Shown: positions 44,376 to 63,556 of the stretch, piece by piece
Position numbering within the stretch: the first letter of the stretch is position 1
Layout: each line of letters starts with the position of its first letter
Source of the DNA: Lutibacter sp.
GTDB taxonomy: Bacteria > Bacteroidota > Bacteroidia > Flavobacteriales > Flavobacteriaceae
Direction: 5' to 3'
Assembly (NCBI RefSeq): GCF_013041805.1
Contig: NZ_JABDRI010000019.1
Location: forward strand, 1-64,000
Length of the DNA: 64,000 nt
Notes under the pieces: model-generated
The model's database searches: none
Seen by the model: only the letters and a program-made list of their open reading frames with translations
Told to the model about the DNA's origin: nothing
Program-made: the position numbers and the translations under genes

Positions 44376-44463
44376 CAAAAATACTGTCAATATTCTCTTT
44401 TTATACATTTATTCGATTGGTAATAAGGTTGTAACGTCGAATGGTAATTATCCTTCGATTAAC
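44376..44463 (-). promoter_or_regulatory. 21-bp periodic repeat site E and promoter (CAP lipoprotein unit)
   Basis: Three 9-bp units on the + strand start at 44413 (TCGATTGGT), 44434 (ACGTCGAAT) and 44455 (TCGATTAAC), exactly 21 bases apart. The minus-strand -7 box TATTTTTG is at 44383-44376, 30 bases from the first unit. Same layout as sites A-D and F. Confidence 0.65.
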
Positions 44464-44525
44464 AAAAAAAGTAGTTTTAAATTAAGTTTTAAGCACCTAA
44501 ATTTTAGTTATTACTATAATTAAAA

Positions 44526-44559
44526 CAAAAAAAATGCAGCTTAGAACTGCATTTTTTTT
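44526..44559 (-). terminator. Rho-independent terminator after the receiver-glycosyltransferase gene
   Basis: AAAATGCAG / CTGCATTTT with a CTTAGAA loop, T tracts on both sides (bidirectional). Confidence 0.88.
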
Positions 44560-44589
44560 AAATCATTTAAATCGTATTTCAAGACGTCT

Positions 44590-45726
44590 TTATCTTAAAA
44601 CCCATGCTATTTGACCAAGTTGTCCAATTATTTTTACGGAGTCTTTCATAGAAAGTTTTGACCCATCCGCATGTATCCATCTTTTTAATGGTTTTTCACA
44701 TAATATTTGTTTCGCTTTTTGCAGTCCATACTGTTTTCTTACTCTTATGAAAATCTCAACATCGAATAACCACTTTGTTAAAAATTTAGAATCAAATGCA
44801 GTATTAATAATATCTTTATGAAAGATTTTAGCTCCACATTGCGTATCTTTAAATTCCATTTTTAATATTTTACGAATTATAAAATTAACTGTTAAACTTA
44901 TAATTTTTCGAGCAGATTCTTTTGTAATATTAGCTCCCATTCTAGCAATTCTAGATCCACTTACAATCTTATATTCAGAGTTTTCAATTGTTGAAACCAG
45001 GTCATCAAAATCGGCTAAATCTGTAGAAAGATCCGCATCTAAAAAACCAATATAATCTAAATCTACTTTTTTAGCCATATGAAGCATTCCAAGTCTCACA
45101 GCTTCTGCTTTTCCACCATTTTTTTCGCAATCATAAACGGTAATAAAACTTTCTCTACCTTTTCTTAAATTATTTAAAACTTCTAATGTTTTATCTTTAC
45201 TTCCATCGTTTACAAAACATAAATGATAACCTGAATGCTTATCAACAAAATCTAAGAATTCTGTACTTAACAACCTTTCTTCCTCATCATAACAAGGTAT
45301 TACCACTCCAACACATCTTTGTTCTATAATAATATTATCATTATTTTCAACCAAGTTGTTTGTTTCTGGAGTACCAACAAGTCTTTTTACTCTTGCGCTT
45401 ATTTCATTTAAACTTAAAGGCTTTTTCATATAATCGTTAATACCTAATTCGAATCCTTCAGTAATAATAGCGTCATCTGTATTTCCTGAAAGCACCATAA
45501 TTGGAGTTGTTGATTTTTCTTCAATTCTAATAAATTTTACTACATCAATTCCAGACACCTCTGGCATATTAATATCTACAATTACTAAGTCTGGTTGAAA
45601 TGATTTATAGGTTTCAATTCCAGTTTCAGCGTTAAATTCTGTTTTTACTTCATAACCTAATGCTTCTAATCTCTTCTGAAGTGGCAATAAAACTAATTGT
45701 TGATCATCAATGGCTAATACTTTCAT
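44590..45726 (-). CDS. Response-regulator receiver fused to family 2 glycosyltransferase
   Basis: A 378-residue fusion. Residues 1-118 are a complete receiver domain: acidic pair Asp7/Asp8, phosphoacceptor Asp51 (LVIVDINMPEVSG), Ser80 and Lys102 of KKP. Residues about 139-378 are a GT2 domain of the dolichyl-phosphate-glucosyltransferase type: VVIPCYDEEERL, FVNDGSKDKT (172-180), KNGGKAEAVRLGM and the metal site DAD (230-232), then SGSRI and DTQCGAKIF. No helices follow, so it is cytosolic or peripheral. Phosphorylation control of sugar transfer is the natural inference. Its kinase is probably that at 58052. Divergent from the GT-C-like gene, sharing site F. Confidence 0.9.
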   Translation of the reverse strand: MKVLAIDDQQLVLLPLQKRLEALGYEVKTEFNAETGIETYKSFQPDLVIVDINMPEVSGIDVVKFIRIEEKSTTPIMVLSGNTDDAIITEGFELGINDYMKKPLSLNEISARVKRLVGTPETNNLVENNDNIIIEQRCVGVVIPCYDEEERLLSTEFLDFVDKHSGYHLCFVNDGSKDKTLEVLNNLRKGRESFITVYDCEKNGGKAEAVRLGMLHMAKKVDLDYIGFLDADLSTDLADFDDLVSTIENSEYKIVSGSRIARMGANITKESARKIISLTVNFIIRKILKMEFKDTQCGAKIFHKDIINTAFDSKFLTKWLFDVEIFIRVRKQYGLQKAKQILCEKPLKRWIHADGSKLSMKDSVKIIGQLGQIAWVLR

Positions 45727-45752
45727 AATTTTGTTTTAATTGATTTATACTT

Positions 45753-45840
45753 CAAAAGTATGGCAGTAAGCTTTTTATAATTTAAAAATTAGTTGAAACA
45801 AGCTCTAACTTAGATGAAAGGTAGTTTTATGTAGATAAAT
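45753..45840 (-). promoter_or_regulatory. 21-bp periodic repeat site F and promoter (receiver-GT2 / GT-C divergent region)
   Basis: Units on the + strand start at 45790 (TAGTTGAAA), 45811 (TAGATGAAA) and 45832 (TAGATAAAT), each 21 bases apart. The minus-strand -7 box TACTTTTG is at 45760-45753, again 30 bases from the first unit. The site could also act on the divergent gene at 45901. Confidence 0.6.
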
Positions 45841-45900
45841 AAAATTGAGTGAAGTAACAAATTCTTTATATTTACATATCAGAAGAAATTTTTATTCTTA

Positions 45901-48900
45901 ATGCAGGAAAAGACAAATAAATATTTAATTGTTGCTCTATTAATTGGTGTAATCTTTCATGGATCCTCTATATTTTTCACTTTAGAAAACACATACGATG
46001 CATTAATTCATTTGTTTTTTGCAGAACATTATTCAACTAGCTGGTTCGAACCTTGGAATTATAAATGGTATACTGGTTTTACAGTAATGGGATATCCACC
46101 GCTAGTTCATCAAACTATTGGTTTATTATCATTAATTGGAGGTTTAAAATTTGGAATGTTTACAGTTGCAATTATTGCCGTAATACTTTTTATAACTGGA
46201 TCTTATCGATTTTCATTATTAATAACCGCCGATAGAAAAGCTGCAGGTTATGCGGCTATTTTGGCGACACTATCTTCTTCATTTGTTGAAACGCTGCATA
46301 TTTTTGGGCAATTACCAAGTATCATTGGTATTTCAATTTTAATGCATTCCCTCCCTGAAATTTATTTATGGATTAAAACTGGTAAGTACCGTTATTTAAT
46401 AACATCTATTTCTTTAATAGCAGTTACCGTAACATCTCATCATGTCACGCCTATTTTTGGAATGATTTTCTTTATTTTTCCCTTGATTGGAATGGTCATC
46501 ATGGATCATTCAAGAGACAAAGTAAACACGATGAAAGAAGTAACATTTAAAGTGTTTTTACAATCATTTTTCAAGTTATTTAAAAGAATTATAGGTTTTG
46601 GGGTACTTTCTCTAATAACAATCGTGTTTTGTATTTTACCGTATTGGATGAATTCTAAAGCAAATCCAATTACTCAAGTTCCCATTCCACACGGAAGTAG
46701 GGATAATTTTTTAGAAATAACCTCATCTGGTTTAGTTTTTTTTCTAATTCCTTGGGGAATTTTATTGTTCATTTTACCCTATATTTATTATAGATATTAC
46801 TCAAAACGGTATTTATTTTTTGGTCTTTCATTTACAATACTTTCAATTTTAGGAACTGGAGGAACTACTCCGATACCACTAAAATTATTAGGAGAAACAG
46901 CCTTCAATATTTTAACATTAGACAGATTTACATTATGGGCTTCAATAATGGCTATCCCAATGTTTGGAGAATTTGCCTATCGCTTTGTTGAAGGTGACTT
47001 AAAAGAAAAACTTCAACAAAAATTTGGTGCTGTGTACCATAGGATTTTAGGGGGTACTTTTATGGGCATATTTTTATTTTTCACAGCTTTCACCATTACT
47101 TTAGGTTATTTTAGACCAACGCAGCCTCAGCAAATTAAAATGCTGCCTATTTTAAATTTTCTAAATCAAGACCAACACGATCATTGGAGGTTTTTACCTT
47201 TAGGGTTTGGAGATCAAATAGCATGGCTTTCAGCACAAACAAACGCAATGACTGTTGATGGAAATTACCACTCAGCCAGAAGGTTGCCAGAACTTACAAC
47301 CAGAGCAGTTGAACGACTGGAAAATTCAAAATTTAGAGGTGTAGAAGGGATTGGAAGTTTACAACAGTTTCTTACAGTTCCAGAAAAGTATAATTTAAAA
47401 TATGTGTTTTCTAATGACAAATTTTACGACCCTATATTATATTTCTGTGGATGGCAACGGTTAAGACAACTAGAAAATGGAATTATGGTTTGGGAAAAAT
47501 TAAACGTCCCTCCACTTTCTAAAATACTTCCTAAAGATGAAGTTCCAACATTTTTAAAATTAATGTGGGGAATTATTCCTTTATTAACAGTTCTAATTGC
47601 GTTTATATTAAATATTCAAATGGTTTGGTATCAAACCCTTAAAATTAAAATTAAAGCGACTCCACCGTTTTTAAAATATAAAAATAGTTACATCAACTTC
47701 CCTAGTCAATTAATTCTAATCAATCATATTTGGGCTGTTATTTTAACCTGTGTTTTCTTTTTTGGTATCTATTTATTTTATGTTAAAAATACTGCACAAA
47801 TAAGCCCTAAAAATGTTGTTGAAGCTTATTATGATGCTCTAGATTTTAAAGAATTTGAAAGAGCACATTCTTATATTAGTCCAGACAGCGATATTGATAT
47901 AGCACAATATATGTTAGAAGTTTCGGTAACCGATGGTATTTTAAGTTCATATGCAAAATTAGACGCCATAGATGTAGAGCTTGTATCAAAAACCAAATCA
48001 AACGCAAAAATAATTGCTAAAACGGAATGGATTACGCCTTTAGAAACAATTAGTAAAACCTTTAAACACGAATTGGTTAAAAAGAATAACAAATGGTATG
48101 TTATTCCAAATTCGTATGATTTAGATATTCCACCTGACCAGTTATTTTCAGATAATATTCCTGAGTATTACAATCATGGAAGAAGACGTATTACAACGCA
48201 ACAGACTAATCATGAGGACGTTTTAAAACAACCAGTGTTAGAAATTTTATCTGCTTCATTAGTGAAATATAAAAATCAATACGTTATTGTTGGAGAACTT
48301 CAAAATATAGATAATGTGCCAGCTGATGTTGTTTTAAAAGGAACTTTATATTCTGACAATAATGAGGAATTAGCAAGTTACAATGCAAAATATGTTATTA
48401 AACATAAATTATTACCTAAGGAAATTACAAGTTTTCGCATCGATTTTGAAGGAATTTCCTGGTTAAATCCAAATGAAAAAATTCCGGCAACTTTTAATCC
48501 TGATGAATTTACTCCAATAGAGCTAGAGGAGCAACCAACTAAATTTAACTTACAAGCAGCAGGAAATGTTGCTACAACAGATTTATATAAAAATGTTGCA
48601 ATTACAAATTTAGATATTGATAATAAACATATTGAGGGAACCTTATTTAACTATGGAATACAAGAAGTTACTATTCCTCAACTCTTGGTTACTTACTACG
48701 ACAATAAAAAAGAAATAATTTGGGTGGAGCATCAATTTTTAAGAGAAGGTGTTAGAGTACAACGAAAACAATATTTCAATTATTTGCTTCAACAAAATGA
48801 TAGCATGGAAGTTATAAATAATAGTATCGAGAATTGTTTTGTGAATGGTTTACCCAATAAATCAATTGCAAATAAGGTAGTTCCAAATAGAAACGAAAAA

Positions 48901-48993
48901 CATTTAAAAGAACAATTGCAACTTATTAATAACGAATCCGATTTTAAATTTATTAAAATTGAACTTAACAATTATATAGGCAATCCAAAATAA
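45901..48993 (+). CDS. GT-C-like polytopic membrane protein with C-terminal soluble domains
   Basis: A 1030-residue membrane protein with about ten or more helices in residues 1-580. The early ENTYDALIHLFFAEHY loop, just after helix one, has the acidic and His pattern of GT-C enzymes that use lipid-linked sugars, and ILGTGGTTPIPLKLLGE and YHSARRLPELTTRA-type segments recall the PTPS-related membrane family. After a last helix (about 605-630), an NTF2-like domain (VVEAYYDALDFKEFERAHSY, 635-745) and beta-rich domains follow. The acceptor and donor are unknown; its place in the polysaccharide block suggests polymerisation or modification. The ATG of the next gene overlaps its stop. Confidence 0.65.
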   Translation: MQEKTNKYLIVALLIGVIFHGSSIFFTLENTYDALIHLFFAEHYSTSWFEPWNYKWYTGFTVMGYPPLVHQTIGLLSLIGGLKFGMFTVAIIAVILFITGSYRFSLLITADRKAAGYAAILATLSSSFVETLHIFGQLPSIIGISILMHSLPEIYLWIKTGKYRYLITSISLIAVTVTSHHVTPIFGMIFFIFPLIGMVIMDHSRDKVNTMKEVTFKVFLQSFFKLFKRIIGFGVLSLITIVFCILPYWMNSKANPITQVPIPHGSRDNFLEITSSGLVFFLIPWGILLFILPYIYYRYYSKRYLFFGLSFTILSILGTGGTTPIPLKLLGETAFNILTLDRFTLWASIMAIPMFGEFAYRFVEGDLKEKLQQKFGAVYHRILGGTFMGIFLFFTAFTITLGYFRPTQPQQIKMLPILNFLNQDQHDHWRFLPLGFGDQIAWLSAQTNAMTVDGNYHSARRLPELTTRAVERLENSKFRGVEGIGSLQQFLTVPEKYNLKYVFSNDKFYDPILYFCGWQRLRQLENGIMVWEKLNVPPLSKILPKDEVPTFLKLMWGIIPLLTVLIAFILNIQMVWYQTLKIKIKATPPFLKYKNSYINFPSQLILINHIWAVILTCVFFFGIYLFYVKNTAQISPKNVVEAYYDALDFKEFERAHSYISPDSDIDIAQYMLEVSVTDGILSSYAKLDAIDVELVSKTKSNAKIIAKTEWITPLETISKTFKHELVKKNNKWYVIPNSYDLDIPPDQLFSDNIPEYYNHGRRRITTQQTNHEDVLKQPVLEILSASLVKYKNQYVIVGELQNIDNVPADVVLKGTLYSDNNEELASYNAKYVIKHKLLPKEITSFRIDFEGISWLNPNEKIPATFNPDEFTPIELEEQPTKFNLQAAGNVATTDLYKNVAITNLDIDNKHIEGTLFNYGIQEVTIPQLLVTYYDNKKEIIWVEHQFLREGVRVQRKQYFNYLLQQNDSMEVINNSIENCFVNGLPNKSIANKVVPNRNEKHLKEQLQLINNESDFKFIKIELNNYIGNPK

Positions 48994-50231
48994 TGAGAAA
49001 AAGTAACTACATATCATTTTTTATAGTAATTACTCTGCTAATTTCTGCATTCTCGATTAAGACCGAGAGCTCTACATCTGACAAATTTAAACTTGAAACT
49101 GTAGAAAAATCCTTTTTAGCTGGTACTAAAGTTACCTTAACTTTTTTTACTGAAAATGGTAAAAAACCGCTTCTTTTTATTCATAATTCATACGGTAGTA
49201 CCGTCATAAGTCCTAAAAAGGTAGAGGCAAAATTAGATTTTATTATTCCACCTGTTTTTTCTAAAAAGACCGGGATATTGAATTGGACTTTAATTTATGA
49301 AGGAAAATCTCAACTAAAAAGCAGCATTGAAATTCTCCCAAACAATACTACTAAAACACTTATTGAAAGCTATTTGGGGCCAAGAAGCATTCAGGCTGGG
49401 AAAAGAGATTATTCAATGTTTGTTATAATTCCTACTGATGAATTTGACAATCCTTTACTTGAAAATACTTCATTAAAAATTAATCAACAATTTTTAGACA
49501 ATATTACTTCAACAGAAGAAAAAACTAAAAATCTAATTGCCTGGAATACTATTATGGCAAAAGAAAAAGCTGGATCTATTTTAGTTTCATCATCGTGTAA
49601 TTCAACAAATTCAAATGAATTAACCACCATTATTTATCCTTCAAACCCAACAAACTTTATAATAAGTTTTAACAGAAATCACGATTTTGCTGATGGCAAC
49701 CAAATTACGGAACTTACGACTTCAAAAATAGTAGATGAATTTGGCAATACAATTAGCGATGGAACTATGGTTGTATTTAATATCGTAAATACAGAAAATA
49801 CTATTTTAAAAACCAGAGCAACAACTATAAATGGATTTGCAAAAGCTAAAATTTTACATCCAGATTCTAAAGATATTTGGAGCGTAAAAGGTTTTGTAAA
49901 TGGCTTGGCTGAAAGTAATACCATTACCATAAATTATGAACCGATAACAACTAATTTTAATGTTCATTTTTCTGAAAATAACAGAAAAATAACAGTAGGA
50001 CCAATTGAAAGTTTTATGAACCAATTAATCCCAGATGGAGCTTTGGTTAAACTTAAAATTTTTAATAACAATAATTTAGTAGAAACAAAAACAGGAACAA
50101 GTTATAAGGGGTTTATAACATTTGAAATTGCTGCTGAATTTTACAGAGAAAATAGTTATTCATTTATTGTAGAAGTTTTAGGGAATTCAAAAGAAATTGA
50201 AACAAAAAATTATGCAACAAAAACTGAATAA
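48993..50231 (+). CDS. Exported Ig-like-repeat protein
   Basis: A 412-residue protein with a signal peptide (1-25). The rest is beta-rich with Ig-like segments resembling bacterial Ig-like domains (FNRNHDFADGNQITELTTSK, VDEFGNTISDGTMVVFNI, TINGFAKAKI; FADGN and DEFGN motifs). No catalytic residues are evident. Its ATG overlaps the stop of the GT-C-like gene, and its end overlaps the GH5 gene, so the three form one operon and probably one envelope assembly. It could be a periplasmic scaffold or polymer-binding protein. Confidence 0.65.
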   Translation: MRKSNYISFFIVITLLISAFSIKTESSTSDKFKLETVEKSFLAGTKVTLTFFTENGKKPLLFIHNSYGSTVISPKKVEAKLDFIIPPVFSKKTGILNWTLIYEGKSQLKSSIEILPNNTTKTLIESYLGPRSIQAGKRDYSMFVIIPTDEFDNPLLENTSLKINQQFLDNITSTEEKTKNLIAWNTIMAKEKAGSILVSSSCNSTNSNELTTIIYPSNPTNFIISFNRNHDFADGNQITELTTSKIVDEFGNTISDGTMVVFNIVNTENTILKTRATTINGFAKAKILHPDSKDIWSVKGFVNGLAESNTITINYEPITTNFNVHFSENNRKITVGPIESFMNQLIPDGALVKLKIFNNNNLVETKTGTSYKGFITFEIAAEFYRENSYSFIVEVLGNSKEIETKNYATKTE

Positions 50232-51765
50232 AAATATTTATAGAGGAATTTTAATTCTTTCATTTATTGCTGTAAATGTTCTTATAATTTATGGTGTTAG
50301 CTCTGTTTTGGCTTATTTAAAAACAGGAGCTGACAGAGCTAATATGTTGCATATTGATATTAAAAGTGAAACCGTTTATGCTCCTGAAATAAATTGGATA
50401 AGCGTAGATAATCCTGGAAGAGAAATATCAAAACAAGAATTAAAAAGTATTGAAGATCATTATTTGAAATCGTGGTATATTAAAAATATTGCATTTAAAA
50501 ATAATAGCCCTTATGGAATTGAGGATTTTTATACAGATAGTGCACGTGTACATATATTTAATACACTTAAGTTAAATAAAGAACAAGAGATTTCTGTTGA
50601 AGCTACTACTATTAGTCATTCCCCAAAATTAGAATTTTATAGTGAAGACGGAAAATTAGCAGTTTTAACTGATAATAATGTGGTTGAATTTCAAAAAGTA
50701 TTTCAAAATAATAAGCTGATTTTAAGCACAACCGACACAAGTTCGTATAAAATTGTGCTGTTATTAGAAGATGGTTTTTGGAGGATTAGACATAAGGTTA
50801 AGATTGAAAATGAACAAAAAAAAGACACTCTAAAAACAAAACAAATAAATGAAATTAAAGATTCAGAAATTTTTGTTGAAGGAACCCCATTTACAATAAA
50901 AGGAGTTAACTATTACCCAAAGGAAACTCCTTGGGATATGTTTGGAGAGAATTATAATTTAGAAGCAATTGAAAAAGATTTTAAACTTATTGAAAATTCT
51001 GGGCTAAATAGTATTCGAATTTTTATTCAATATGAAGATTTTGGAAAAGAAAAAATTCCTTTAGCAAAAATAGAAAAACTAGAACAAGTGTTGAATGCCG
51101 CCGAAAATTCAGGTTTAAAAGTTATTGTTACTTTATTTGATTTTTATGGAGATTACTCAGTTACAAATTGGACATTAACACATAGACATGCCGAACAAAT
51201 TGTTTCAGCCTTTAAAACCCACAATGCTATTTTAGCTTGGGATATTAAAAATGAACCTGATTTAGACTTTGATAGTAGAGATAAAAATACAGTGTTGGCG
51301 TGGTTGTCTCAAATGATTAAAGAAATTAAAAAGTTTGATCCATATCATTTAGTTACTATTGGTTGGTCTTCTCCAGAAGCTGCTGTGAATTTATTAGATG
51401 AGGTAGATTTTGTTTCATACCACTATTATAAAAATATAGATAGTTTTGAAAATGATTTTAAAACCTTAAAAGGGCATTCTTTAAACAAACCAATTGTTTT
51501 GCAAGAATTTGGACTTTCATCCTATAAGGGTATTTGGAATTTATATGGTAGTAGTGAAACTAAACAAGCTGAATATCATAAAAAAATGCAAGCAATCTTT
51601 AAAAAAGAATCACTTGCATTTATGTCTTGGGGGCTTTATGATTTTAAACAAATTCCAACTTCAGTTGCGGGTCGCCTGCCGTGGAGAAATATAAAACAAA
51701 AATATTTTGGTTTTATTAATGAAAACGGAGTTGAAAAACCTTCGTTTTTATATATTTCCAACTAA
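50197..51765 (+). CDS. Membrane-anchored GH5-like glycoside hydrolase
   Basis: A 522-residue protein with one N-terminal helix (about 16-40), an NTF2-like segment (about 78-205, EDHYLKSWYIKNIAF, FWRIRHKVKI) and a TIM-barrel hydrolase domain (225-522). The barrel has IKGVNYYPKETPWDMF, SIRIFIQYEDFG, the acid/base Glu353 in DIKNEPD, VSYHYY and the nucleophile Glu437 in VLQEFG. This fits clan GH-A (GH5 or GH2-like). Polysaccharide export systems often include such a periplasmic hydrolase. The start overlaps the previous gene by 35 bases (ATG at 50212 would give 20). The 3' end overlaps the convergent gene by 18 bases. Confidence 0.82.
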   Translation: MKQKIMQQKLNKNIYRGILILSFIAVNVLIIYGVSSVLAYLKTGADRANMLHIDIKSETVYAPEINWISVDNPGREISKQELKSIEDHYLKSWYIKNIAFKNNSPYGIEDFYTDSARVHIFNTLKLNKEQEISVEATTISHSPKLEFYSEDGKLAVLTDNNVVEFQKVFQNNKLILSTTDTSSYKIVLLLEDGFWRIRHKVKIENEQKKDTLKTKQINEIKDSEIFVEGTPFTIKGVNYYPKETPWDMFGENYNLEAIEKDFKLIENSGLNSIRIFIQYEDFGKEKIPLAKIEKLEQVLNAAENSGLKVIVTLFDFYGDYSVTNWTLTHRHAEQIVSAFKTHNAILAWDIKNEPDLDFDSRDKNTVLAWLSQMIKEIKKFDPYHLVTIGWSSPEAAVNLLDEVDFVSYHYYKNIDSFENDFKTLKGHSLNKPIVLQEFGLSSYKGIWNLYGSSETKQAEYHKKMQAIFKKESLAFMSWGLYDFKQIPTSVAGRLPWRNIKQKYFGFINENGVEKPSFLYISN

Positions 51766-52953
51766 CTCCATACCAGCATTTTTAGCTGCAATTGTATTAA
51801 AGTACTCAATATACATATCTGTAATAGTTTCCATTGGTAATGAACATGCTGCTTTATAGTTATTTTTCCCTAATGCCATTCTATAATCATCTTTAGTAAT
51901 TATTTCTTGAATTGCATCTGCTAAAGAAGCTGTATTTGTTGGGTTAAAAAATTCTCCTCTGTAGCCTTCATCTTTAACTAATAAACTTAAATCCCCTAAA
52001 TCTGGTAATACCACTGCTTTTCCATAACTTCCAGCTTGGTGTAAAACCCCAGAACTTCCTGTTGTTGAAGTATATGGAAATACTACAACAGCACTTTCAT
52101 TAAATATTACTGGGACATCACTTTCTTCTACATAACCTGTAAATGTTAAGTTTGGAACATGTGCATATTGCTTTTTAACATTTTCTAAATAACCTGGAGT
52201 ATTTGGACTATCAGTTCCTGCAATAACAATTTCAATGTTTTCGTTTGTTCTTTTTCTTATTTTCTCAACTGCTTCAATCATTATTTCAACTTTTTTATAA
52301 GTTCCAAATTTCCCAAAAGTCATTACTTTTTTTGCGCCTTTTGGTAATTCAAAACTTGGTTCTGGTGGAGTTTCAAAAGAGCCATGAGGAATTAAAACAA
52401 CATTATCTGCATTGTATTTTTCTTCTAATATTTCAACATATTTTTGAATAGTTACAGCAACTAAGTCTGCTTTTAATAAAAATTTAGTTAAGGTAGTTCC
52501 TATAAAATTATATGCTTTTTGTAATAATTTATTACTTGCAAAACCTGCACTATTTAAATCTACTTGTTCTAATATATTATGTAATAAAACAATAGAAGGG
52601 ATTCTTTTTAATTTAAAAATCATAGGTAATAATAATCCTAAAGCGGCTGGTATTTTTTTATCACCAAACTTCATAAATTGAAGGTTGAATAAAACCGCAT
52701 CTGGTTTTTCTTCATTAATAGCTTTATAAATGTTTACTACATTTGCGTAGCTATTAAATTTCCAAGAGTCTTTAACTGTAATTTTACAATTATTAGTTTT
52801 AAAATCAAGTTGTTTTTCTTCTTCTGTGTGGTCTGTAATTAAAACAATTTCGCTTATTTCATCCTTTTGAGCGAAGTGTTTTACTAAATGATAACCATAC
52901 TCTGTTAAGGTTACTTTACTAGGTGGAAACGCTGTTACTATTGCTATTTTCAT
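51748..52953 (-). CDS. GT4-type glycosyltransferase
   Basis: A 401-residue GT-B fold enzyme: N-terminal IAIVTAFPPSKVTLTEYGYHLVK and C-terminal MTFGKFGTYKKVEIMIEA, FTGYVEESDVPVIFNES and FPYTSTTGSSGVLHQAGSYGKAVV, the donor-binding region of family 4 retaining transferases. It is cytosolic and probably uses a nucleotide sugar such as GDP-mannose, given manA and manC in the region (inference). A single-gene unit with repeat site D upstream; converges on the GH5 gene. Confidence 0.88.
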   Translation of the reverse strand: MKIAIVTAFPPSKVTLTEYGYHLVKHFAQKDEISEIVLITDHTEEEKQLDFKTNNCKITVKDSWKFNSYANVVNIYKAINEEKPDAVLFNLQFMKFGDKKIPAALGLLLPMIFKLKRIPSIVLLHNILEQVDLNSAGFASNKLLQKAYNFIGTTLTKFLLKADLVAVTIQKYVEILEEKYNADNVVLIPHGSFETPPEPSFELPKGAKKVMTFGKFGTYKKVEIMIEAVEKIRKRTNENIEIVIAGTDSPNTPGYLENVKKQYAHVPNLTFTGYVEESDVPVIFNESAVVVFPYTSTTGSSGVLHQAGSYGKAVVLPDLGDLSLLVKDEGYRGEFFNPTNTASLADAIQEIITKDDYRMALGKNNYKAACSLPMETITDMYIEYFNTIAAKNAGMELVGNI

Positions 52954-52988: not shown

Positions 52989-53076
52989 CAAAAATAATGG
53001 AACAATACAGCGTAAAATTTAATCTTCGATAGCTAGAAAGTAAGTGTCGACGAATGGAAAAAAGGTGTTGATAAAA
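52989..53076 (-). promoter_or_regulatory. 21-bp periodic repeat site D and promoter (GT4 gene)
   Basis: Units start at 53026 (TCGATAGCT), 53047 (TCGACGAAT) and 53068 (TTGATAAAA), 21 bases apart. The minus-strand -7 box TATTTTTG lies at 52996-52989, 30 bases from the first unit. The 294-base intergenic region holds this site and the terminator at 53163-53203. Confidence 0.68.
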
Positions 53077-54906: not shown

Positions 54907-54956
54907 TATTAGTACTTTATACTTAAATTGCAGGTATAAATAAATAACAAAAGGAA

Positions 54957-57008: not shown

Positions 57009-57019
57009 CAACTAATTCT

Positions 57020-57724
57020 TCACAATAAATTAAGCCTTTTCATTAATTCTGGTCTATTAGAACGGCTTACGGGAATGACATTATTTCCAATTAATACACT
57101 ATTATCTTCAATGTCAATGATTTTCTTGGTGTTAATAATAAAAGATCTATGGACTTTTAAGAAAAGATCATCAGGTAATTTTTCTTCAATTTTTTTCATT
57201 GTAGAATGTACCGTATAATTTTTGGATTCAGTTTTTATTAATATATAGTCGCCTTTAGCTTCTACCAAATTAATAGTTTCAAAATTAATTTTTACTAAAC
57301 GTCTATCTATATTTACATATAATTCTTTAATTTCTTCTTGCTCTTCAATTTTAGGTTGTGCAGCATCATTTTGAACAAATAAAACTGCTTTTTGAACTGC
57401 CTTATTAAAACGCTCTTGTGTTACTGGCTTCACTAAATAATCAACTATACAATCGTATTCAAAAGCTTCAATTGCAAAGTTTTTATCGGAAGTAGTTAGG
57501 ATTACTTTAGGAGGGTTCTTTAGAGTTTGCAATAAATCAAATCCAGTAAATCCCGGCATATGAATATCTAAGAAAATTAGATCTACACTATTTTGATTTA
57601 AATATTTTATAGCTTCAATTGCATTAGAAAAAGATTCCTTTAAATTTATTTTTTTATTATTCGAACTTAATTTTTCAATAATAGCACGAGCCATTTCTTC
57701 GTCATCAATAATAATAGTTTTCAT
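57020..57724 (-). CDS. LytTR-family response regulator
   Basis: A 234-residue transcription factor. The receiver domain (1-120) has Asp7/Asp8, phosphoacceptor Asp53 (LIFLDIHMPGFTG) and VKPV. The LytTR DNA-binding domain (about 130-234) has INLVEAKGDYILIKT, FLKVHRSFIINTKKI and PVSRSNRPELMKRL. LytTR proteins bind pairs of direct repeats about 21 bp apart, which is the pattern of sites A-F, so it is the prime candidate for their regulator. It is the last gene of the signalling operon that begins at 61499, ten bases after the Hpt gene. Confidence 0.93.
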   Translation of the reverse strand: MKTIIIDDEEMARAIIEKLSSNNKKINLKESFSNAIEAIKYLNQNSVDLIFLDIHMPGFTGFDLLQTLKNPPKVILTTSDKNFAIEAFEYDCIVDYLVKPVTQERFNKAVQKAVLFVQNDAAQPKIEEQEEIKELYVNIDRRLVKINFETINLVEAKGDYILIKTESKNYTVHSTMKKIEEKLPDDLFLKVHRSFIINTKKIIDIEDNSVLIGNNVIPVSRSNRPELMKRLNLL

Positions 57725-57734
57725 AGAGAACCTT

Positions 57735-58055
57735 TTAAACTGTTTTTATAAAGCAAACCATAGAATTTAAAATTTCTTCAAATTCTTTTTTTAAATTTAA
57801 GTTATCTATTTTTAAATTCTCTTCGTAATCTATTGCAACTTGATAACTTTTTTCAAGCCCTAAAATACTAATTTTATGTTTAATTTTATGCACAAGTTCT
57901 GAAGCTTGTTTAAAATTATTTTCATTTAGAAATTTTTTATAGGAATTTATTTCATTTGGAAGCTCTTTTTTTACAATTTCAAGCAGTTTTTTTTCAAACT
58001 CATCATCTCCTCCAGAAATTTCATGTAAGTAATTTAAATTTGGCTTTTCGCTCAT
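57735..58055 (-). CDS. Hpt phosphotransfer protein
   Basis: A 106-residue all-helical protein with an Hpt core: ELVHKIKHKISILGL, where His56 is the likely phosphorylated residue. The usual HxLKG has become HKIKH, a mild deviation. It overlaps the histidine kinase stop by four bases. An Hpt between a kinase and a regulator usually means a multi-step phosphorelay. Confidence 0.82.
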   Translation of the reverse strand: MSEKPNLNYLHEISGGDDEFEKKLLEIVKKELPNEINSYKKFLNENNFKQASELVHKIKHKISILGLEKSYQVAIDYEENLKIDNLNLKKEFEEILNSMVCFIKTV

Positions 58056-60541
58056 ATTAATTGTTTTTTAATACTAAAAAAGAAAGTTGTTCCTTTTCCT
58101 ACTTCGCTTTCTAACCAAATTCTACCTTTATGAAGTTCAACAATTTTTTTTACAATAGATAAACCTATACCAGAGGAATCCTCACTTTTATTTAGATAGT
58201 TAAATATTTTGAAAATCTTTTTATGATATTTTTTTTCAATACCTATACCGTTGTCTTTTACAGAAAACTGATAATAGGCTCCTGAATTTTTAAAATCCAC
58301 CTCCACAAGTCCATTTTTTTTATCGCAAAACTTAATAGCATTGCCAATTAAGTTTTGAAATAGTTGTTGCAATTTAGTTTTATCACCAGTAAGTGTTGGA
58401 AGCTTTTTCTTTATATTAAACTTGATATGATTAGGAATATATATAATTTGTTCTAAATCAGATACTACCTCATTTAAGTTTACTTCCTCTCTTTGGGTTG
58501 ATGCCGCTTCTAAACTAGAGTACTTTAAAATATTAGAGATGAGTTGTTCCATTTTTTCTAATGTAGATTCAATAAGTGCAACGTTTTTAAGACTCATATC
58601 ATCTAATTTACCTTCATTGTCCTCTTTTAACCAGGCTACTAGGGCGTATATGCTACGTAATGGTGATTTTAAATCATGAGATACTATGTGGGCATACTCG
58701 TGTAATTCATCATTACTTCTTTCTAAATCTTTAAGCAAGGTTTCCTTTTGTAATTGCAAATTTTTTAAATCTGTAATATCAAGATGAATTCCTATTGAAC
58801 CAATAACTTCACCATTTAAGTTATAGTTGGGAGCACCACTTATTAGCCAATGCCTTATTTGGCCAGCTTTGTTTTTTGCACGTACCTCATAAGAATTTAA
58901 CTGCCCTTGTTGGCGTTTTAGGTTTTCATTATTAATAATATCTCTATCAATATCTATTATAAAAATATCACTAGCTATTTTTCCAAGAAGCTCTTCTAAT
59001 TTATAACCTGACATTTCTTCAAAACTCTGATTGACTAACAGTATTTCATCATTGGCATTTACTTCTACCAATCCAAGATTCATATTAGTTATAATACTTC
59101 TGTACTTATGCCTTTGAGCTTCAATACTTTTTCGGTATTGACGTTTTAAAGTAACATCTCTATATTTCCATAAATGACCTTTGTAGACTTTATTCCTATA
59201 TATTGGAACAAAATCACGCTCATATATTTTACCATTAACCATAGTGAGTTCTTCACTTAAAACCAGTTCTTTTTTTGAAAGAATGGTCTCAATATTTTTT
59301 ACAAATTCTTCCGGATTTTGAAAAAGCGACTTGCTTTCTTCAGCAGAATTACTACAATCTTGCCCTATTAGCTGTTCCACCGGGACAGGAATTTCAAAAA
59401 ACTCACAAAATTGCTTGTTGGTTAGAATTATTTTTCTGTTTTCATCTTCCAATAAGATACCACTATCCAAATTTAGAATAAGAGTTGATAATCGTTCTTC
59501 AGACTCTATTAATTCTTCTTCAGCTTTCTTCCGTTCCCTTAAATCAACAGCACTTTTTAATTGTAATGCTACCAAACTGGCAATATTATTAAGCATCTCT
59601 AAATGCTTTTGAGTAAAAAAGTTTTCTTGATCGTTTTCGGAGTCTATAACCCCAATTACTTTATCACCAATTTTTATAGGAATTGTAATTTCAGATTTTC
59701 TCCTTTCAATATCCACAACATATCTAGGGTCGTTAATTGTATCGTTAACTATTTCAGAAATTCCTGTTTGAGCAACGTGACCAACCACGCCTTCTCCTTC
59801 TTTTAAAAAAATTTTATTTATTAGCTGTTTGTTTTCATCTAATTTTTCTCCATAAGCCGCAATTTGTTCGAGGGTATTTTGTTCTTCATGATATAGATAA
59901 ATTACACAGTCATTAGACTCTAAGTAATTGGCAATTTTATGAGCGATTTCGAAGGCAATTTCATAAATATCTAGCTTTCCTAAAATAGATTGTGCAATAC
60001 TATTGATTAATTCAATTACTAATTCGTCTTCTTTTGATTTTGTAATGTCTCGAACAATACCTTGAGCAGCTACCGGAATTCCCTTATCATAAATAACGCT
60101 AGCATTAATATGAACTAGTTTTATTTTATTTTTCTTGCTTCTGATTTTAATCTCAAAATCAGTTATAAAACCTGTTTTAAGGAAATTCTTAAAAGCATTT
60201 GAAATGGTGTCATAATCCTCTGGAAATACCATATTCATCAGGTTAGCTTCCACTTTTTTGCCATCAAATTCAAATAGGCTTATTGCGGAAGTGTTCATTT
60301 TTAAAATATTACCCGATAAATCCATAATTACATAGGCATCCACAATATTTTCGAAAACACCTTGTAGTTGAGAATCTGCTCTTTGTAAATCAGATTCTGC
60401 ATCTTTATATAATTTTTCTAATTTTTTCTTTGATGAAAAGAGCTCTGTAGATTTTTGCTCTAATATTTTTTCAGCAGCTTTTCGTGCTTCTCGTTCTCTT
60501 TTTAGTGCGCGTTGTAATATGTCAATTTTATCTTGACTCAT
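58052..60541 (-). CDS. PAS/GAF sensor histidine kinase
   Basis: An 829-residue soluble kinase with no membrane helix. An N-terminal coiled coil (1-55) leads to PAS (about 60-175), GAF (about 185-335, EGVVGHVAQTGISEIVNDT), two further PAS domains (about 345-460 and 475-600), HisKA with phosphoacceptor His622 (AHIVSHDLKSPLRSI) and a HATPase domain (NLIGNAIKF, DNGIGI, SGIGLSIVKKIVELHKG). No receiver is attached, so an Asp must come from another protein. Its ATG overlaps the H-NOX stop by one base (TAATG), a strong hint that the H-NOX protein is its sensor partner. Confidence 0.93.
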   Translation of the reverse strand: MSQDKIDILQRALKREREARKAAEKILEQKSTELFSSKKKLEKLYKDAESDLQRADSQLQGVFENIVDAYVIMDLSGNILKMNTSAISLFEFDGKKVEANLMNMVFPEDYDTISNAFKNFLKTGFITDFEIKIRSKKNKIKLVHINASVIYDKGIPVAAQGIVRDITKSKEDELVIELINSIAQSILGKLDIYEIAFEIAHKIANYLESNDCVIYLYHEEQNTLEQIAAYGEKLDENKQLINKIFLKEGEGVVGHVAQTGISEIVNDTINDPRYVVDIERRKSEITIPIKIGDKVIGVIDSENDQENFFTQKHLEMLNNIASLVALQLKSAVDLRERKKAEEELIESEERLSTLILNLDSGILLEDENRKIILTNKQFCEFFEIPVPVEQLIGQDCSNSAEESKSLFQNPEEFVKNIETILSKKELVLSEELTMVNGKIYERDFVPIYRNKVYKGHLWKYRDVTLKRQYRKSIEAQRHKYRSIITNMNLGLVEVNANDEILLVNQSFEEMSGYKLEELLGKIASDIFIIDIDRDIINNENLKRQQGQLNSYEVRAKNKAGQIRHWLISGAPNYNLNGEVIGSIGIHLDITDLKNLQLQKETLLKDLERSNDELHEYAHIVSHDLKSPLRSIYALVAWLKEDNEGKLDDMSLKNVALIESTLEKMEQLISNILKYSSLEAASTQREEVNLNEVVSDLEQIIYIPNHIKFNIKKKLPTLTGDKTKLQQLFQNLIGNAIKFCDKKNGLVEVDFKNSGAYYQFSVKDNGIGIEKKYHKKIFKIFNYLNKSEDSSGIGLSIVKKIVELHKGRIWLESEVGKGTTFFFSIKKQLI

Positions 60542-61080
60542 TAATTTTTGGTAATACTAAACTTTACTTCTGTTCCGTCAGCTTTAATTTTTTCTAGAAC
60601 AATAGTTGCCTTAGAATTAAAATGTTCAAATGTTTTATTCATTAATCCTAATCCAAAATGATGCATTGACCTACTTGATTTATAAATCATTATGAGGGAA
60701 TTTTCTGCTCTCTCAACAACTTCAAACGTTGGTAATTCTGCTTCTGGATAGATTTTAATAACTTCCACATGAATATGATTTTCTATAGAAGCTAGCATTT
60801 CAATTGGATCTGTATATAATTTAAAAAAGGAAGGATAATTGGTTTCTAAAACCGAAAAAAAATGTTCTCCATAAACTAAGAGTAACTGATCAATAGAAAT
60901 TGTTGTTTTGGCACTTAAATGTTGCACTAATTGAAGCATTTCTGAAAAGTCGTAAGTTCCTATTGAAGTATAAACTCCATTTGATTTTAAATCTGATTTT
61001 TCAATAATTTCATCAACTGTTTCAAAACCAAACTTTTCTTCAACTAATTCTAAAAATTCTGTAAATACAATGCCTTTCAT
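60541..61080 (-). CDS. H-NOX haem nitric oxide sensor
   Basis: A 179-residue haem-binding gas sensor. The proximal haem ligand is His102 (ENHIHVEVIKIYP), Pro117 is in AELPTF, and the haem-propionate motif YxSxR is Tyr133-Ser135-Arg137 (YKSSR). Residues 1-60 form the distal helical subdomain (GIVFTEFLELVEEKFG). In other bacteria H-NOX proteins inhibit partner kinases when NO is bound. Lies between a CheY-like receiver gene and the kinase gene. Confidence 0.93.
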   Translation of the reverse strand: MKGIVFTEFLELVEEKFGFETVDEIIEKSDLKSNGVYTSIGTYDFSEMLQLVQHLSAKTTISIDQLLLVYGEHFFSVLETNYPSFFKLYTDPIEMLASIENHIHVEVIKIYPEAELPTFEVVERAENSLIMIYKSSRSMHHFGLGLMNKTFEHFNSKATIVLEKIKADGTEVKFSITKN

Positions 61081-61085
61081 TTTAA

Positions 61086-61499
61086 TTAAGCTTTTATTAA
61101 TTCATTAGCGCTCCAATAGTCTAATACTCTTTTTATGATTTCGATATAGTCATCAAATTTTAGAGGTTTTATAACATAACCTGCAATGCCAATTTTATAA
61201 CATTCTAACATATCTTTTCTATTGTTAGAGGTTGTTAAAATTATTGTTGGGATATATTTTAACTCATTATTATTTTTTAGAATTTCTAAAAATTCTATAC
61301 CATTTAATTTTGGCATGTTTAAATCTAATAAAATTATATCGGGTAAGCTATCTTTTTTGTATAAAATATCTAAAGCATCTTCACCATTTTTAGCTTCAAT
61401 AATTTTATGTGGATAATCGAGTTTAGCAATAGTTCTGTTTAACTTCATAACCTCTATCATATCATCTTCAATAAGAAGAATTGTTAGCGTATTTTCCAT
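61086..61499 (-). CDS. Stand-alone response regulator (CheY-like)
   Basis: A 137-residue single receiver domain: acidic Glu11/Asp12/Asp13, phosphoacceptor Asp59 (IILLDLNMPKLNG), TTS and Lys of IKPL. There is no output domain. It heads the signalling operon, five bases before the H-NOX gene. It can serve as the middle Asp of a His-Asp-His-Asp relay between the kinase and the Hpt protein, which otherwise lacks a donor. Confidence 0.92.
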   Translation of the reverse strand: MENTLTILLIEDDMIEVMKLNRTIAKLDYPHKIIEAKNGEDALDILYKKDSLPDIILLDLNMPKLNGIEFLEILKNNNELKYIPTIILTTSNNRKDMLECYKIGIAGYVIKPLKFDDYIEIIKRVLDYWSANELIKA

Positions 61500-61546
61500 G
61501 TTTTTATAATTTTTTTAGAGAAATGTAAATTTCAAAAATACAATCT

Positions 61547-61613
61547 CAAATTAAATTTAAATTCGATGAAATATATAACACTATCGTTGAAATGCAGTTT
61601 AGTATCGACGAAT
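61547..61613 (-). promoter_or_regulatory. 21-bp periodic repeat site B (signalling operon, likely autoregulation)
   Basis: Units start at 61563 (TCGATGAAA), 61584 (TCGTTGAAA) and 61605 (TCGACGAAT), exactly 21 bases apart. A minus-strand TTAATTTG (7/8 to -7) lies at 61554-61547, 30 bases from the second unit. A perfect TATTTTTG also lies at 61540-61533. It is upstream of the gene at 61086. Confidence 0.68.
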
Positions 61614-61666
61614 GGTTTTAAAGGTCAGTATAATAAGGGTAATATTTAAATTAGAGCTTATGGCAG

Positions 61667-62098
61667 TTAACTTTTTATTTGCTTTTCGGCAATTTCTTTA
61701 CGTAAACTGCTACTTGAAAAACGATGTTCTCTTTTATTATAATATAATTCTATTCCTTTTTCTTTGCAATATTTTTTACCTGTAAAATCTTTAAATTCAT
61801 ATTCATCACCTACCACGCGCATATCAATTTTAAAAGAATGCAATATATCTTCTAAATCTTGTTCGGTTGCATAAGGCACAATTTCATCAACAAATGTGCA
61901 CCCTTTAAGCTGTATGTATCTTTCAACAACTGATTGAATTGGCTGATTTTTTTCCGGTCTATCTAATGTTGGGTCTGTTTGCAAACCGCAAATTAGATAG
62001 TCACATTTACTTTTAGCTTCTTCCAACATTTTTATATGACCAGCATGAAATAAATCAAATGCGCTAAATGTAATTCCAATTTTCATTTCTTTTTCCAT
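61667..62098 (-). CDS. Cytidylyltransferase-like protein (TagD/RfaE type)
   Basis: A 143-residue nucleotidyltransferase: GITFSAFDLFHAGHIKMLEEAK (HxGH at the active site), DYLICGLQTDPT, the VGDEYEFKD loop and YNKREHRFSSSSLRKEI (the RTxGISTS-like element). Such enzymes make CDP-glycerol or ADP-heptose precursors; the exact substrate is open. The start at 62098 may be four codons too early; ATG 62086 begins directly at the fold. It ends 55 bases downstream of manC. Confidence 0.85.
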   Translation of the reverse strand: MEKEMKIGITFSAFDLFHAGHIKMLEEAKSKCDYLICGLQTDPTLDRPEKNQPIQSVVERYIQLKGCTFVDEIVPYATEQDLEDILHSFKIDMRVVGDEYEFKDFTGKKYCKEKGIELYYNKREHRFSSSSLRKEIAEKQIKS

Positions 62099-62153
62099 TT
62101 TAATTCAAATTTCTTTTTTTTTGACTTAAACTTATAATTACCATTCACGATTA

Positions 62154-63188
62154 TTATACCAGTTCAAAATTATTTTCTTTTACATCATTATATATTCCTT
62201 TGACCAAATCACTTTTTGAGCGTGGTAAAATTAAGATACTATCTTCAGTATCGACTATAACTACATTTGCAATTTCAGCACCAACTACTTTCTTTTTACT
62301 AAAAACAAAACTATTTCCATTTGGGTTTTCAATTTGCTGCAAGTTATCTACTTGGTTTCCTTCTTCAAAATAATTGATGATTGCATCAAAAGAGCCCAAA
62401 TCAGTCCAATAAAAATTAGACGCAACTGTTTTAATCACTTTACTATGTTCCAATACGGCATAATCAATACTATCTGCTGGGATTGCTTTCATAGCCTCCA
62501 AATCAACAACTCCTTTTTCAATTGTTGGCAATGCTTTTTCACATGCGGCTAAAATATCTGGATGGTATTTGTGTAATTCATCTAAAAATACACCTGCTTT
62601 AAAACAAAACATCCCACTATTCCAATAAAAGTTACCTTTTTCTAAAAATAATTGAGCATCTATAGCTGTTGGTTTTTCTCTAAATTGTATAACTTCCTCA
62701 TTTTCAAACTCTATATAGCCATAGCCTGTATGTGGTTCAGTTGGTTTAATTCCGAAAGTAACAATTTTGTTTTCATTCGCTAATTCAATAGCTCTTGAAA
62801 CACAGGTTTTGTAATGTTCTTCATCAGCAGTCATATGATCTGAAGGAGTGACAAACAAGATAGCATCTTTAGCAACTGACAAGGCAGCCAATGCGATGGC
62901 AGGTGCCGTATTTCTGCCAACAGGTTCAATAATTTTATGTGCAATCTCAATTCCTAGGTCATCGGCTTGTTTTTCCGCTGCCTTATATTGTGCTTCATTG
63001 GTAATCAGCATATAATCATTAGCTACTTGTTGGTTACGTAACAACGTATGCTGAAATAATGACTTTCCATTAAATAATTGTAAAAATTGCTTGGGATTAC
63101 TGTTACGCGATAAGGGCCATAAACGAGTTCCTGACCCACCACTTAAAATAATGTTGATGACTTTTTGGGGTGTTTTTATTGTATCCAT
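62154..63188 (-). CDS. manC: Mannose-1-phosphate guanylyltransferase
   Basis: It makes GDP-mannose from GTP and mannose-1-phosphate. The 344 residues carry the nucleotide-binding LSGGSGTRLWPLSRNSNPKQF, FVTPSDHM and EKPTAIDAQLFLEKGNFYWNSGMF. It has no fused isomerase domain, consistent with a separate manA at 42459. No phosphomannomutase is in the window. Together they bracket the polysaccharide block. Confidence 0.95.
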   Translation of the reverse strand: MDTIKTPQKVINIILSGGSGTRLWPLSRNSNPKQFLQLFNGKSLFQHTLLRNQQVANDYMLITNEAQYKAAEKQADDLGIEIAHKIIEPVGRNTAPAIALAALSVAKDAILFVTPSDHMTADEEHYKTCVSRAIELANENKIVTFGIKPTEPHTGYGYIEFENEEVIQFREKPTAIDAQLFLEKGNFYWNSGMFCFKAGVFLDELHKYHPDILAACEKALPTIEKGVVDLEAMKAIPADSIDYAVLEHSKVIKTVASNFYWTDLGSFDAIINYFEEGNQVDNLQQIENPNGNSFVFSKKKVVGAEIANVVIVDTEDSILILPRSKSDLVKGIYNDVKENNFELV

Positions 63189-63216
63189 TTTTTAACTGTT
63201 TTTCTTTCTGTAGCTT

Positions 63217-63417
63217 TTATTGAAAATTTTTGTTCAGATATACGCTGTCTTCTTTTGCTTTTAAGAAATCTGTATTATTTAATCCTGTAAATTTCCATTC
63301 TTCTCTATCATTTTTAGATATTTTATGATAATATGCTTCCAATATATCTGCAAATTGATCAAATGATAGTTTGTTATAATCCTCTACAATTCGCAATGCA
63401 TCTATTAAGTTATTCAT
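63217..63417 (-). CDS. Small hypothetical protein upstream of manC
   Basis: I do not recognise this 66-residue protein. It is soluble and mostly helical (LIDALRIVEDYNKLSFDQFADILEAYYHKISK), with no cysteines. It begins the leftward unit that contains manC and the cytidylyltransferase, with site C upstream. It may be a small regulator of the unit; there is no direct evidence. Confidence 0.6.
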   Translation of the reverse strand: MNNLIDALRIVEDYNKLSFDQFADILEAYYHKISKNDREEWKFTGLNNTDFLKAKEDSVYLNKNFQ

Positions 63418-63468
63418 TTTTTATTTCTTTTAAATTATTACTTTTATGTATTAGCATAATTGCTTTTT

Positions 63469-63556
63469 CAAAAGTAAAAACTAAAATTAGTGAATAATCT
63501 AATATTCGATGAAGTGCAGAAAAATATAGACTGATGGTAGTTTTAGTTCCATAAAA
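63469..63556 (-). promoter_or_regulatory. 21-bp periodic repeat site C and promoter (manC unit)
   Basis: Units start at 63506 (TCGATGAAG), 63527 (TAGACTGAT) and 63548 (TCCATAAAA), 21 bases apart. The minus-strand -7 box TACTTTTG is at 63476-63469, again 30 bases from the first unit. In the 330-base region between 63418 and 63747 I see only this site and the tRNA terminator. Confidence 0.65.

Follow-up and report, generated by a model that had tools for sequence, protein, structure and literature searches.

The window analysed here, a 64-kb stretch of a Lutibacter contig, is AT-rich (30% G+C) and carries a block of genes that would use GDP-mannose, with an exopolysaccharide as the presumed product. 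On the minus strand lie genes for a mannose-6-phosphate isomerase (PMI, 42459–43436; manA match at 5.2e-51), a CAP-domain protein (43857–44354), a receiver domain fused to a GT2 glycosyltransferase (44590–45726), a GT4 glycosyltransferase (51748–52953) that found weak matches in a sequence search of the PDB, a 416-aa protein (53248–54498) and a STAS-domain protein (54524–54808), as well as a CTP_transf_like gene (61667), a mannose-1-phosphate guanylyltransferase-like gene (GMP, 62154), which together span 61667–63188, and a gene at 63217–63417. The 416-aa protein may be flippase-like, judging from a look at its sequence only; Pfam and NCBIfam searches gave no match for it. The plus strand holds an operon for a 1030-aa protein (structure model poor, pLDDT 40), a 412-aa protein and a GH5-like hydrolase (45901–51765), and a TPR protein whose BcsC_C-like end scores below the Pfam cut-off (54957–57008) and which is likely an outer-membrane exporter. 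Gene order was the one ground for considering a Pel-like export system, and that reading was not taken up.

Between these genes lies a minus-strand signalling operon. Its first gene encodes a single-domain receiver (61086–61499; Response_reg, 1.2e-22), followed by an H-NOX (haem NO-binding) protein (60541–61080; HNOB PF07700, 4e-43), a GAF/PAS histidine kinase with no receiver domain listed (58052–60541), an Hpt phosphotransfer protein (57735–58055; 6.5e-5 and 23.5 bits, just under the Pfam cut-off of 24.6) and a response regulator made of receiver and LytTR domains (57020–57724; PF04397 at 7e-20 and PF00072 at 4.4e-18, both above cut-off). All parts of a predicted His-Asp-His-Asp phosphorelay, namely kinase, separate receiver, Hpt and output receiver, are thus found in one operon. 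H-NOX proteins bind haem through a YxSxR motif and a proximal histidine, and inspection of the translation by eye reveals YKSSR as well as a histidine about where one would be expected, so that haem binding is predicted. The preliminary description of this DNA made no use of the H-NOX, kinase and Hpt genes, which suggest a signal. The structure model of the LytTR protein reached a pLDDT of 82; its listed structural matches spanned the receiver only and so carry no information on DNA contacts. In a sequence search of the PDB the LytTR domain matched 3d6w at 9.2e-5 and AgrA at an E-value of about 0.4.

Six intergenic sites, all oriented toward the minus strand, contain direct repeats of about 9 bp, near CCATTCGTCGA in transcribed-strand form, and their 21-bp spacing, noticed earlier, proved exact at all six. 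Site A (44413–44463; units at 44413, 44434 and 44455) precedes the CAP-domain gene, which is followed by the gene at 43479 and PMI. Site B (45790–45840; 45790, 45811 and 45832) stands before the receiver-GT2 gene and diverges from the operon at 45901, and site C (53026–53076; 53026, 53047 and 53068) stands before the GT4 gene. Site D (54877–54906; 54877 and 54898) precedes the STAS gene and then the 416-aa gene, and is divergent from the TPR gene. Site E (61563–61613) lies upstream of the regulator operon (61499–57020), and site F (63506–63535; 63506 and 63527) upstream of 63217–63417, GMP and the CTP transferase gene, in that order. Units 53047 and 61605 are both CCATTCGTC. Three units had been assigned to every site; A, B, C and E indeed have three evenly spaced repeats, while D and F have two good ones. 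The earlier unit lists hold for A, B and C, the unit at 54856 (D) is unconvincing, that at 63548 (F) is weak, and at E the promoter-proximal unit is 61584, flanked by 61605 on its upstream side and by an additional unit, 61563, on its downstream side.

A fixed distance to a TAnnTTTG-like −7 box had also been described, and it stood up. Exact boxes at A (TATTTTTG, 44376–44383), B (TACTTTTG, 45753–45760), C (TATTTTTG, 52989–52996) and F (TACTTTTG, 63469–63476), all on the minus strand, share an offset of 37 from box start to proximal unit start. After correction of register, D and E show minus-strand boxes matching at 7 of 8 positions: GATATTTG (54839–54846, offset 38) and TTAATTTG (61547–61554, offset 37), so that the nearest unit ends 29–30 bp upstream of a box at all six sites. 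At E a second, exact TATTTTTG at 61533 lies at another distance and competes with the canonical geometry. The minus strand of the window has 50 exact copies of TAnnTTTG in all, and an identical offset at four of six sites has a binomial probability of about 4e-9 (intergenic rate; the offset was not fixed beforehand). Published LytTR operators consist of direct repeats of about 9 bp, about 12 bp apart, upstream of the core promoter, according to the parts of the sources used here (PMC4064291, PMC6193735); judged by predicted boxes, such promoter-adjacent placement is found at all six sites.

Leave-one-site-out matrices, built from a total of 16 units of 17 bp and run over the two strands of the window, gave withheld sites B–F a best pair of 18.8–25.9 bits, above every outside position (best outsider 11.1–18.3). 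The best outsider, position 8113, lies inside an open reading frame (4566–11609), and at 14.7 bits it slightly exceeds withheld site A (14.3 bits), which thus just misses the top rank that B–F reach. For the genome scan, 36 sites were listed in the window and relatives; a first alignment of 20 slid three of them by one unit, and therefore the 17 in-register sites were used for profile R1, namely A, B, C, F and 13 sites of three relatives (G033, G011 and G023). Site E, the D-type sites and the sites of G009, G002, G001, G010, G027 and G029 were left out. In the 2.8-Mb genome, R1 gave five significant matches, all in the block (E-values 6.7e-12 to 4.1e-5; four of the five are training sites, and scores were computed for 150 of the 5206 first-look candidates), and the next best match elsewhere has an E-value of 0.14. 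R1 missed site D. A two-unit pattern allowing up to one mismatch matched nine times in the genome, five of them at B, D and E and four elsewhere, and its reversed control three times.

Comparison with relatives links the sites to the 57020 regulator. At 49 loci with an orthologue of the regulator (at least 55% identity), a spacing of 21 bp accounts for 89 positions with a pair above 18 bits and each of the other twelve spacings in the range of 15–27 bp for 0–4, whereas 29 loci around LytTR proteins of less than 45% identity had no such pair at 21 bp. Sites above 17 bits are present in the examined flanks of 39/49 orthologue loci versus 1/29; ten orthologue loci have none in those flanks. Among 38 genomes of the Lutibacter genus, our own included, 18 have the orthologue (E-value at most 1e-60), 18 a profile match (at most 1e-3), 15 both and 17 neither (Fisher exact test, 2.9e-5, or 3.1e-4 without the four training genomes, the relatives not being independent). 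R1 finds the three orthologue-only genomes (G001, G005 and G010) weakly, and matrix scans recover sites in them, before a receiver gene in G005; counting these weak profile or matrix matches, 18/18 orthologue-bearing genomes have a site. Three genomes have a match and no orthologue at this threshold: G007 carries a 46% LytTR protein and a receiver-FIST-kinase operon, and the assembly of G030 is broken at that place. The third is G060. In other families 2/23 genomes have a match at 1e-3 or better (G038, LytTR 51%; G059, LytTR 45%), that of G038 lying away from its best LytTR locus.

Sites A–E are conserved in all three inspected relatives that retain the block (G033, G011 and G023), the gene downstream of A lying beyond the compared stretch in G033. 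The GMP and CTP transferase genes had no match in the compared stretches of G033 and G011. Where relatives lack the block, the same sites stand before genes for secreted proteins; a 906-aa protein of relatives was not found in our genome by a search run without a positive control. Of 78 sites in other loci, 76 lie outside open reading frames of at least 80 aa, though the loci are 90% coding, and 68 have a start on the same strand no more than 250 bp away; the gene that follows encodes a receiver in 31 cases, a GT4 protein in nine and a STAS protein in seven. The box is present at the fixed register in 52/78 (2.9 expected) and at neither register in 17/78, and among the 52 boxed sites a third, promoter-proximal unit stands at its register in 21, compared with at most seven at other offsets. 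Receiver and kinase genes accompany the sites as well, and co-occurrence by itself therefore does not tell which protein binds.

Taken together, it is very likely that the six sites and the regulator make up a single gene switch, shared by many related flavobacteria. We consider it highly probable that the sites are operators of the 57020 regulator, activating six minus-strand promoters under the H-NOX relay. H-NOX would sense NO (or O2) and control the neighbouring kinase, from which phosphate would pass to the single receiver (61086), to Hpt and to the receiver of the LytTR protein. The phosphorylated regulator would bind the units along the same face of the DNA, activating its own signalling operon, by positive autoregulation, together with genes for mannose-sugar nucleotides, glycosyltransferases and export. 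The sequences themselves show the sites, their geometry, their conservation and the regulator's co-occurrence with them; binding, activation, the order of the relay, NO as its signal and exopolysaccharide as the product are what we infer. The preliminary assignment of the sites to this regulator, its own operon included, appears strongly supported by the period, the 18/18 genomes, the absence of pairs at the 29 distant loci and the conservation of A–E. Activation of every unit in 42459–63417 went too far: 45901–51765 and 54957–57008 are plus-strand operons, no exact TAnnTTTG occurs in the scanned stretches before them, and the sites beside them point away, toward divergent minus-strand neighbours.

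That nitric oxide drives the switch may perhaps be read from the place of the regulator in an operon with H-NOX, kinase, receiver and Hpt genes, which suggests an NO input. The NO sensor NosP has the FIST fold, and H-NOX and FIST occur as alternative or joint neighbours at 36/49 orthologue loci versus 2/29 (with few query proteins of this clade). It is quite possible, nevertheless, that the regulon is real and its input is not NO, with H-NOX sensing O2 or redox state or the kinase, which has PAS and GAF domains, answering another signal; at 13/49 orthologue loci neither H-NOX nor FIST is found in the examined flanks, some of which are short contigs. FIST was sought in our own genome and not found, by a search that was positive in 2/14 control genomes.

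The sign of regulation is read from the position of the sites and from their spacers. TTTG, the −33 partner element of TAnnTTTG, is absent from the spacers of all six sites, as expected of activator-dependent promoters, and is present at about −33 in only two of the 52 boxed sites of other loci. Repression, or repression combined with activation, seems unlikely. A precedent exists in CoxC, a LytTR protein that represses from three direct repeats (PMC11347149, as far as the text used here goes), but its operator overlaps the −35 box, whereas here the nearest unit ends 29–30 bp upstream of the −7 box.

More improbable still, one or several others of the eight LytTR proteins in this genome could bind the sites, with 57020 as a mere neighbour. 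A paralogue in G003 (about 50–55%) also has strong upstream sites, so related LytTR proteins can share a motif. However, no significant profile match lies near the other seven LytTR genes, distant LytTR loci lack the 21-bp pairs, and sites precede the orthologue's operon across genera. To explain a period of two helical turns by chance repeats in AT-rich intergenic DNA, or by a protein that bends DNA or organises the nucleoid, is hardly credible, as the units are sequence-specific with G/C positions, neighbouring spacings yield few pairs, conservation follows one regulator, and in 60 surrogates generated from the window by a second-order Markov model the full matrix found no pair above 18 bits (highest 17.9).

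The proposed operators of the 57020 regulator resemble known ones in part. With AgrA, LytR and AlgR, in the portions of the literature used, it shares receiver and LytTR domains, repeats of about 9 bp with spacers of about 12 bp, and autoregulation through them (PMC4064291, PMC6193735); here, in contrast, there are two or three units per site, a Bacteroidota −7 promoter and a single geometry shared by six promoters of the block. AlgR, which controls alginate in Pseudomonas aeruginosa, is likewise a LytTR regulator of polysaccharide genes, and its core CCGTTCGTC agrees with CCATTCGTC at C and E in 8 of 9 positions, motif and regulator class being all that is compared; its signal input differs. 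Alginate is made via GDP-mannose, which the present block would use too. RcoM1 and CoxC share the triplet of direct repeats (12–13 bp apart in RcoM1) and the theme of diatomic gases; CoxC, as described in the part of the source used, unites CO sensor and LytTR in one protein, while here a response regulator stands with a separate H-NOX and relay (PMC11347149). The 57020 protein consists of receiver and LytTR, with no gas-sensing domain fused to the latter. H-NOX/NosP signalling elsewhere also places H-NOX beside a kinase and is linked to biofilm formation, its outputs in the portion of the review used being c-di-GMP enzymes, quorum sensing and the transcription factor HnoC; neither LytTR nor Hpt appears in the text of that review (PMC8738867). 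LytTR operators with a 21-bp period, and triple ones, are already known; this regulon was not found in the available parts of the open-licence literature on LytTR, H-NOX/NosP, Flavobacteriaceae or TAnnTTTG.

On a wider scale we tentatively suggest, as a proposal that could well prove too broad, that an NO-responsive phosphorelay built from an H-NOX and/or FIST sensor, kinase, receiver, Hpt and LytTR operates throughout the Flavobacteriaceae and reads a single promoter code, two or three units at 21-bp spacing plus a −7 box. Its output would be swapped between lineages (exopolysaccharide versus a secreted surface-protein system), and scattered target genes would gain the site in trans. The glycosyltransferase that carries a receiver domain may also be a direct target of the relay, which would combine transcriptional with enzymatic control. 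To our knowledge, few transcription-factor sites are known in the flavobacterial group. The sites described here would provide a readable cis code for the regulon around this regulator in about 20 flavobacterial genera, would connect an H-NOX module with matrix genes at the level of transcription, and would make members of the regulon predictable from sequence.

The periodicity claimed for six intergenic minus-strand sites, with units of about 9 bp repeated every 21 bp (A at 44413, B at 45790, C at 53026, D at 54877, E at 61563–61613 and F at 63506), is real. With position weight matrices of 16 units trained leaving one site out, the withheld site scored above all window positions outside the six sites in 5/6 cases, site A reaching 14.3 versus 14.7 for a single coding-region outlier at 8113, and none of sixty second-order Markov surrogates exceeded 18 bits. 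The unit consensus on the transcribed strand is CTNCCNTTCGTCGA. Most of the individual units in the preliminary description hold, the one at 54856 holding poorly and the one at 63548 being weak. Its fixed distance to the TAnnTTTG box, the Bacteroidota –7 element, is also borne out: once the registers of D and E are set at 54877 and 61584, respectively, the box lies at a start-to-start distance of 37 or 38 in all six sites, with an exact match at A, B, C and F and a 7/8 match at D and E. Site E has a second, exact box at another distance. No TTTG that might serve as a –33 element was found in the six spacers. Another sequence, CTTTATACTTAAA, lies at 54905–54956 ahead of the TPR gene and is shared with the D sites of three relatives (G033, G011 and G023); it is possibly a plus-strand promoter element.

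The sites were also sought throughout the 2.8 Mb genome with R1, a DNA profile built on sequence only from 17 in-register sites, A, B, C and F among them. Scoring covered 150 of the 5206 candidates from a first look; five matches were significant (C, A, B, F and E), every one inside the block of polysaccharide genes (42459–63417), and the strongest match beyond them had an E-value of 0.14, in agreement with the proposal of one regulon over this block; site D was missed by R1 in this search. A two-unit pattern with one mismatch allowed gave 9 genome matches, of which sites B, D and E account for 5, versus 3 for the reversed control.

The same spacing recurs across the bacterial family, at loci with orthologues of the LytTR regulator encoded at 57020–57724 (–). 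A LytTR-alignment scan yielded at least 80 named loci, sorted by LytTR identity into those with at least 55% (49 orthologue loci), those below 45% (29) and two with 49–50%. Scored with the window matrix, the 49 orthologue loci listed (918,370 bases) hold 89 pair positions with more than 18 bits when the spacing is 21 bp, versus 0 to 4 for any one of the twelve further spacings between 15 and 27; with the cut-off raised to 22 bits, the numbers are 51 versus 0 to 3. No 21-bp pair above 18 bits occurs in the 29 listed loci below 45% identity, and there is one in the two loci with 49–50%. Lowering the threshold to 17 bits gives at least one site in 39 of the 49 orthologue loci listed (81 sites, with 6 for spacings 20 and 22 jointly) and in 1 of the 29 listed below 45%; the flanks searched contain no site at this threshold in 10 of the 49.

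Removal of three duplicate Lutibacter-genus contigs among the 49 loci (L133, L134 and L138) leaves 78 sites. As many as 76 of these lie outside ORFs of at least 80 aa, versus 90% of the loci being coding, and the next same-strand start is at most 250 bp away for 68. The gene after the site best matches a receiver in 31 cases, GT4 in 9, STAS in 7, receiver-GT2 in 3, LytTR in 2, and Hpt, a 416-aa protein, a CTP transferase and a 260-aa protein in one case each; no query matched in 22. Genes that look UDP-sugar dehydrogenase-like by their N-terminal sequence stand behind the sites L135:10705, L145:13403 and L170:13444. With at most one mismatch, the box is found in the triple register at 52/78 sites (2.9 expected), in the pair register only at 9 and in neither at 17. 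Of these 52 triple-register sites, 21 have a third, promoter-proximal unit precisely in register (at most 7 at other offsets), and 2 have TTTG at about –33.

Among 38 Lutibacter genomes, including the one studied, 18 have a LytTR orthologue (E ≤ 1e–60) and 18 an R1 match anywhere in the genome (E ≤ 1e–3), with both in 15 and neither in 17 (Fisher P = 2.9e–5, or 3.1e–4 without the four training genomes, kinship being ignored). The three with the orthologue only (G001, G005 and G010) show sites by the matrix or a weak R1 match. The three with a match only are G007, G030 and G060. The G030 LytTR gene may fall in a gap between contigs, since one contig stops after the receiver and kinase genes and the genes following LytTR in relatives open another. 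The G060 matches are at G060:C30:1873 and G060:C64:54, in a genome without a close orthologue. Sites A to E are all conserved in the three block-keeping relatives examined (G033, G011 and G023), as the single-regulon proposal would have it, and precede orthologous genes wherever the fetched stretch includes them, the gene after A in G033 being beyond its edge. A site also precedes the receiver gene in six of six genomes where the fetched stretch contains the regulator and no block was seen (G009, G002, G001, G010, G027 and G029). In G038, from another family, no site was found around the best LytTR (51%), and R1 matches lie elsewhere in the genome; R1 matches are also present in G059 (LytTR 45%).

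Behind site E, one operon carries the genes for a single receiver, an H-NOX protein, a histidine kinase with GAF and PAS domains, an Hpt protein and the LytTR regulator. Together they supply the components expected of a His-Asp-His-Asp relay that includes a haem gas sensor. Receiver and kinase genes likewise travel with the sites. Because LytTR is the only DNA-binding domain found in this operon, and since the period and motif fit its class, the regulator at 57020 is the candidate reader of sites A–F. In place of H-NOX or beside it, G011, G023, G007, L132 and L163 have a FIST protein, FIST being also the fold seen in NosP, an NO sensor, and a second kinase; FIST genes followed by a kinase-sized gene adjoin the regulator operon or stand behind their own site at L042:1640–2773, L045:6171–7301, L118:1466–2599, L132:7495–8625 and L163:2193–3326. 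No FIST match was found in the genome studied. With few query proteins of this clade, H-NOX and/or FIST were matched in 36 of the 49 orthologue loci listed versus 2 of the 29 others, the remaining 13, some on short contigs, having neither. From the two sensor families, as treated in the excerpts of PMC8738867, we infer that NO may be the signal.

The candidate target genes vary. Here they comprise mannose sugar-nucleotide genes, glycosyltransferases, a flippase-like protein and a STAS protein; possible further targets, on the plus strand, are a TPR/BcsC-like exporter, a GH5-like hydrolase and two proteins without assigned family. One glycosyltransferase, of GT2 type, is fused to a receiver domain (44590–45726), through which the relay might possibly control sugar transfer directly. 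One or more of seven proteins from the block had a match beside the regulator in 24 of the 49 orthologue loci listed versus 3 of the 29 others. In Lutibacter relatives without the block (L123:2356–8630 and others) the operon continues past the LytTR gene with genes for a WxLIP-like protein of 260 aa, one of 906 aa, not found in the genome studied, and small secreted proteins, perhaps a surface-structure system. There, sites also precede secreted paralogues of about 190 aa; four are scattered in G009 (L112:8810, L113:7595, L114:6127 and L115:5494), each immediately preceded by a strong 21-bp site, and would be regulon members in trans. Two of these four have no Pfam match.

According to the excerpts of PMC4064291 and PMC6193735, LytTR proteins bind direct repeats of about 9 bp some 12 bp apart, so that a 21-bp period is expected; three repeats are described for the RcoM1 and CoxC operators in that of PMC11347149, and the AlgR sequence CCGTTCGTC agrees in 8/9 bases with the best units of sites C and E. 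The operator is thus of a known kind; the variant not found in the literature searched is its combination with a gas-sensor relay, a shared promoter geometry and an exchangeable output.
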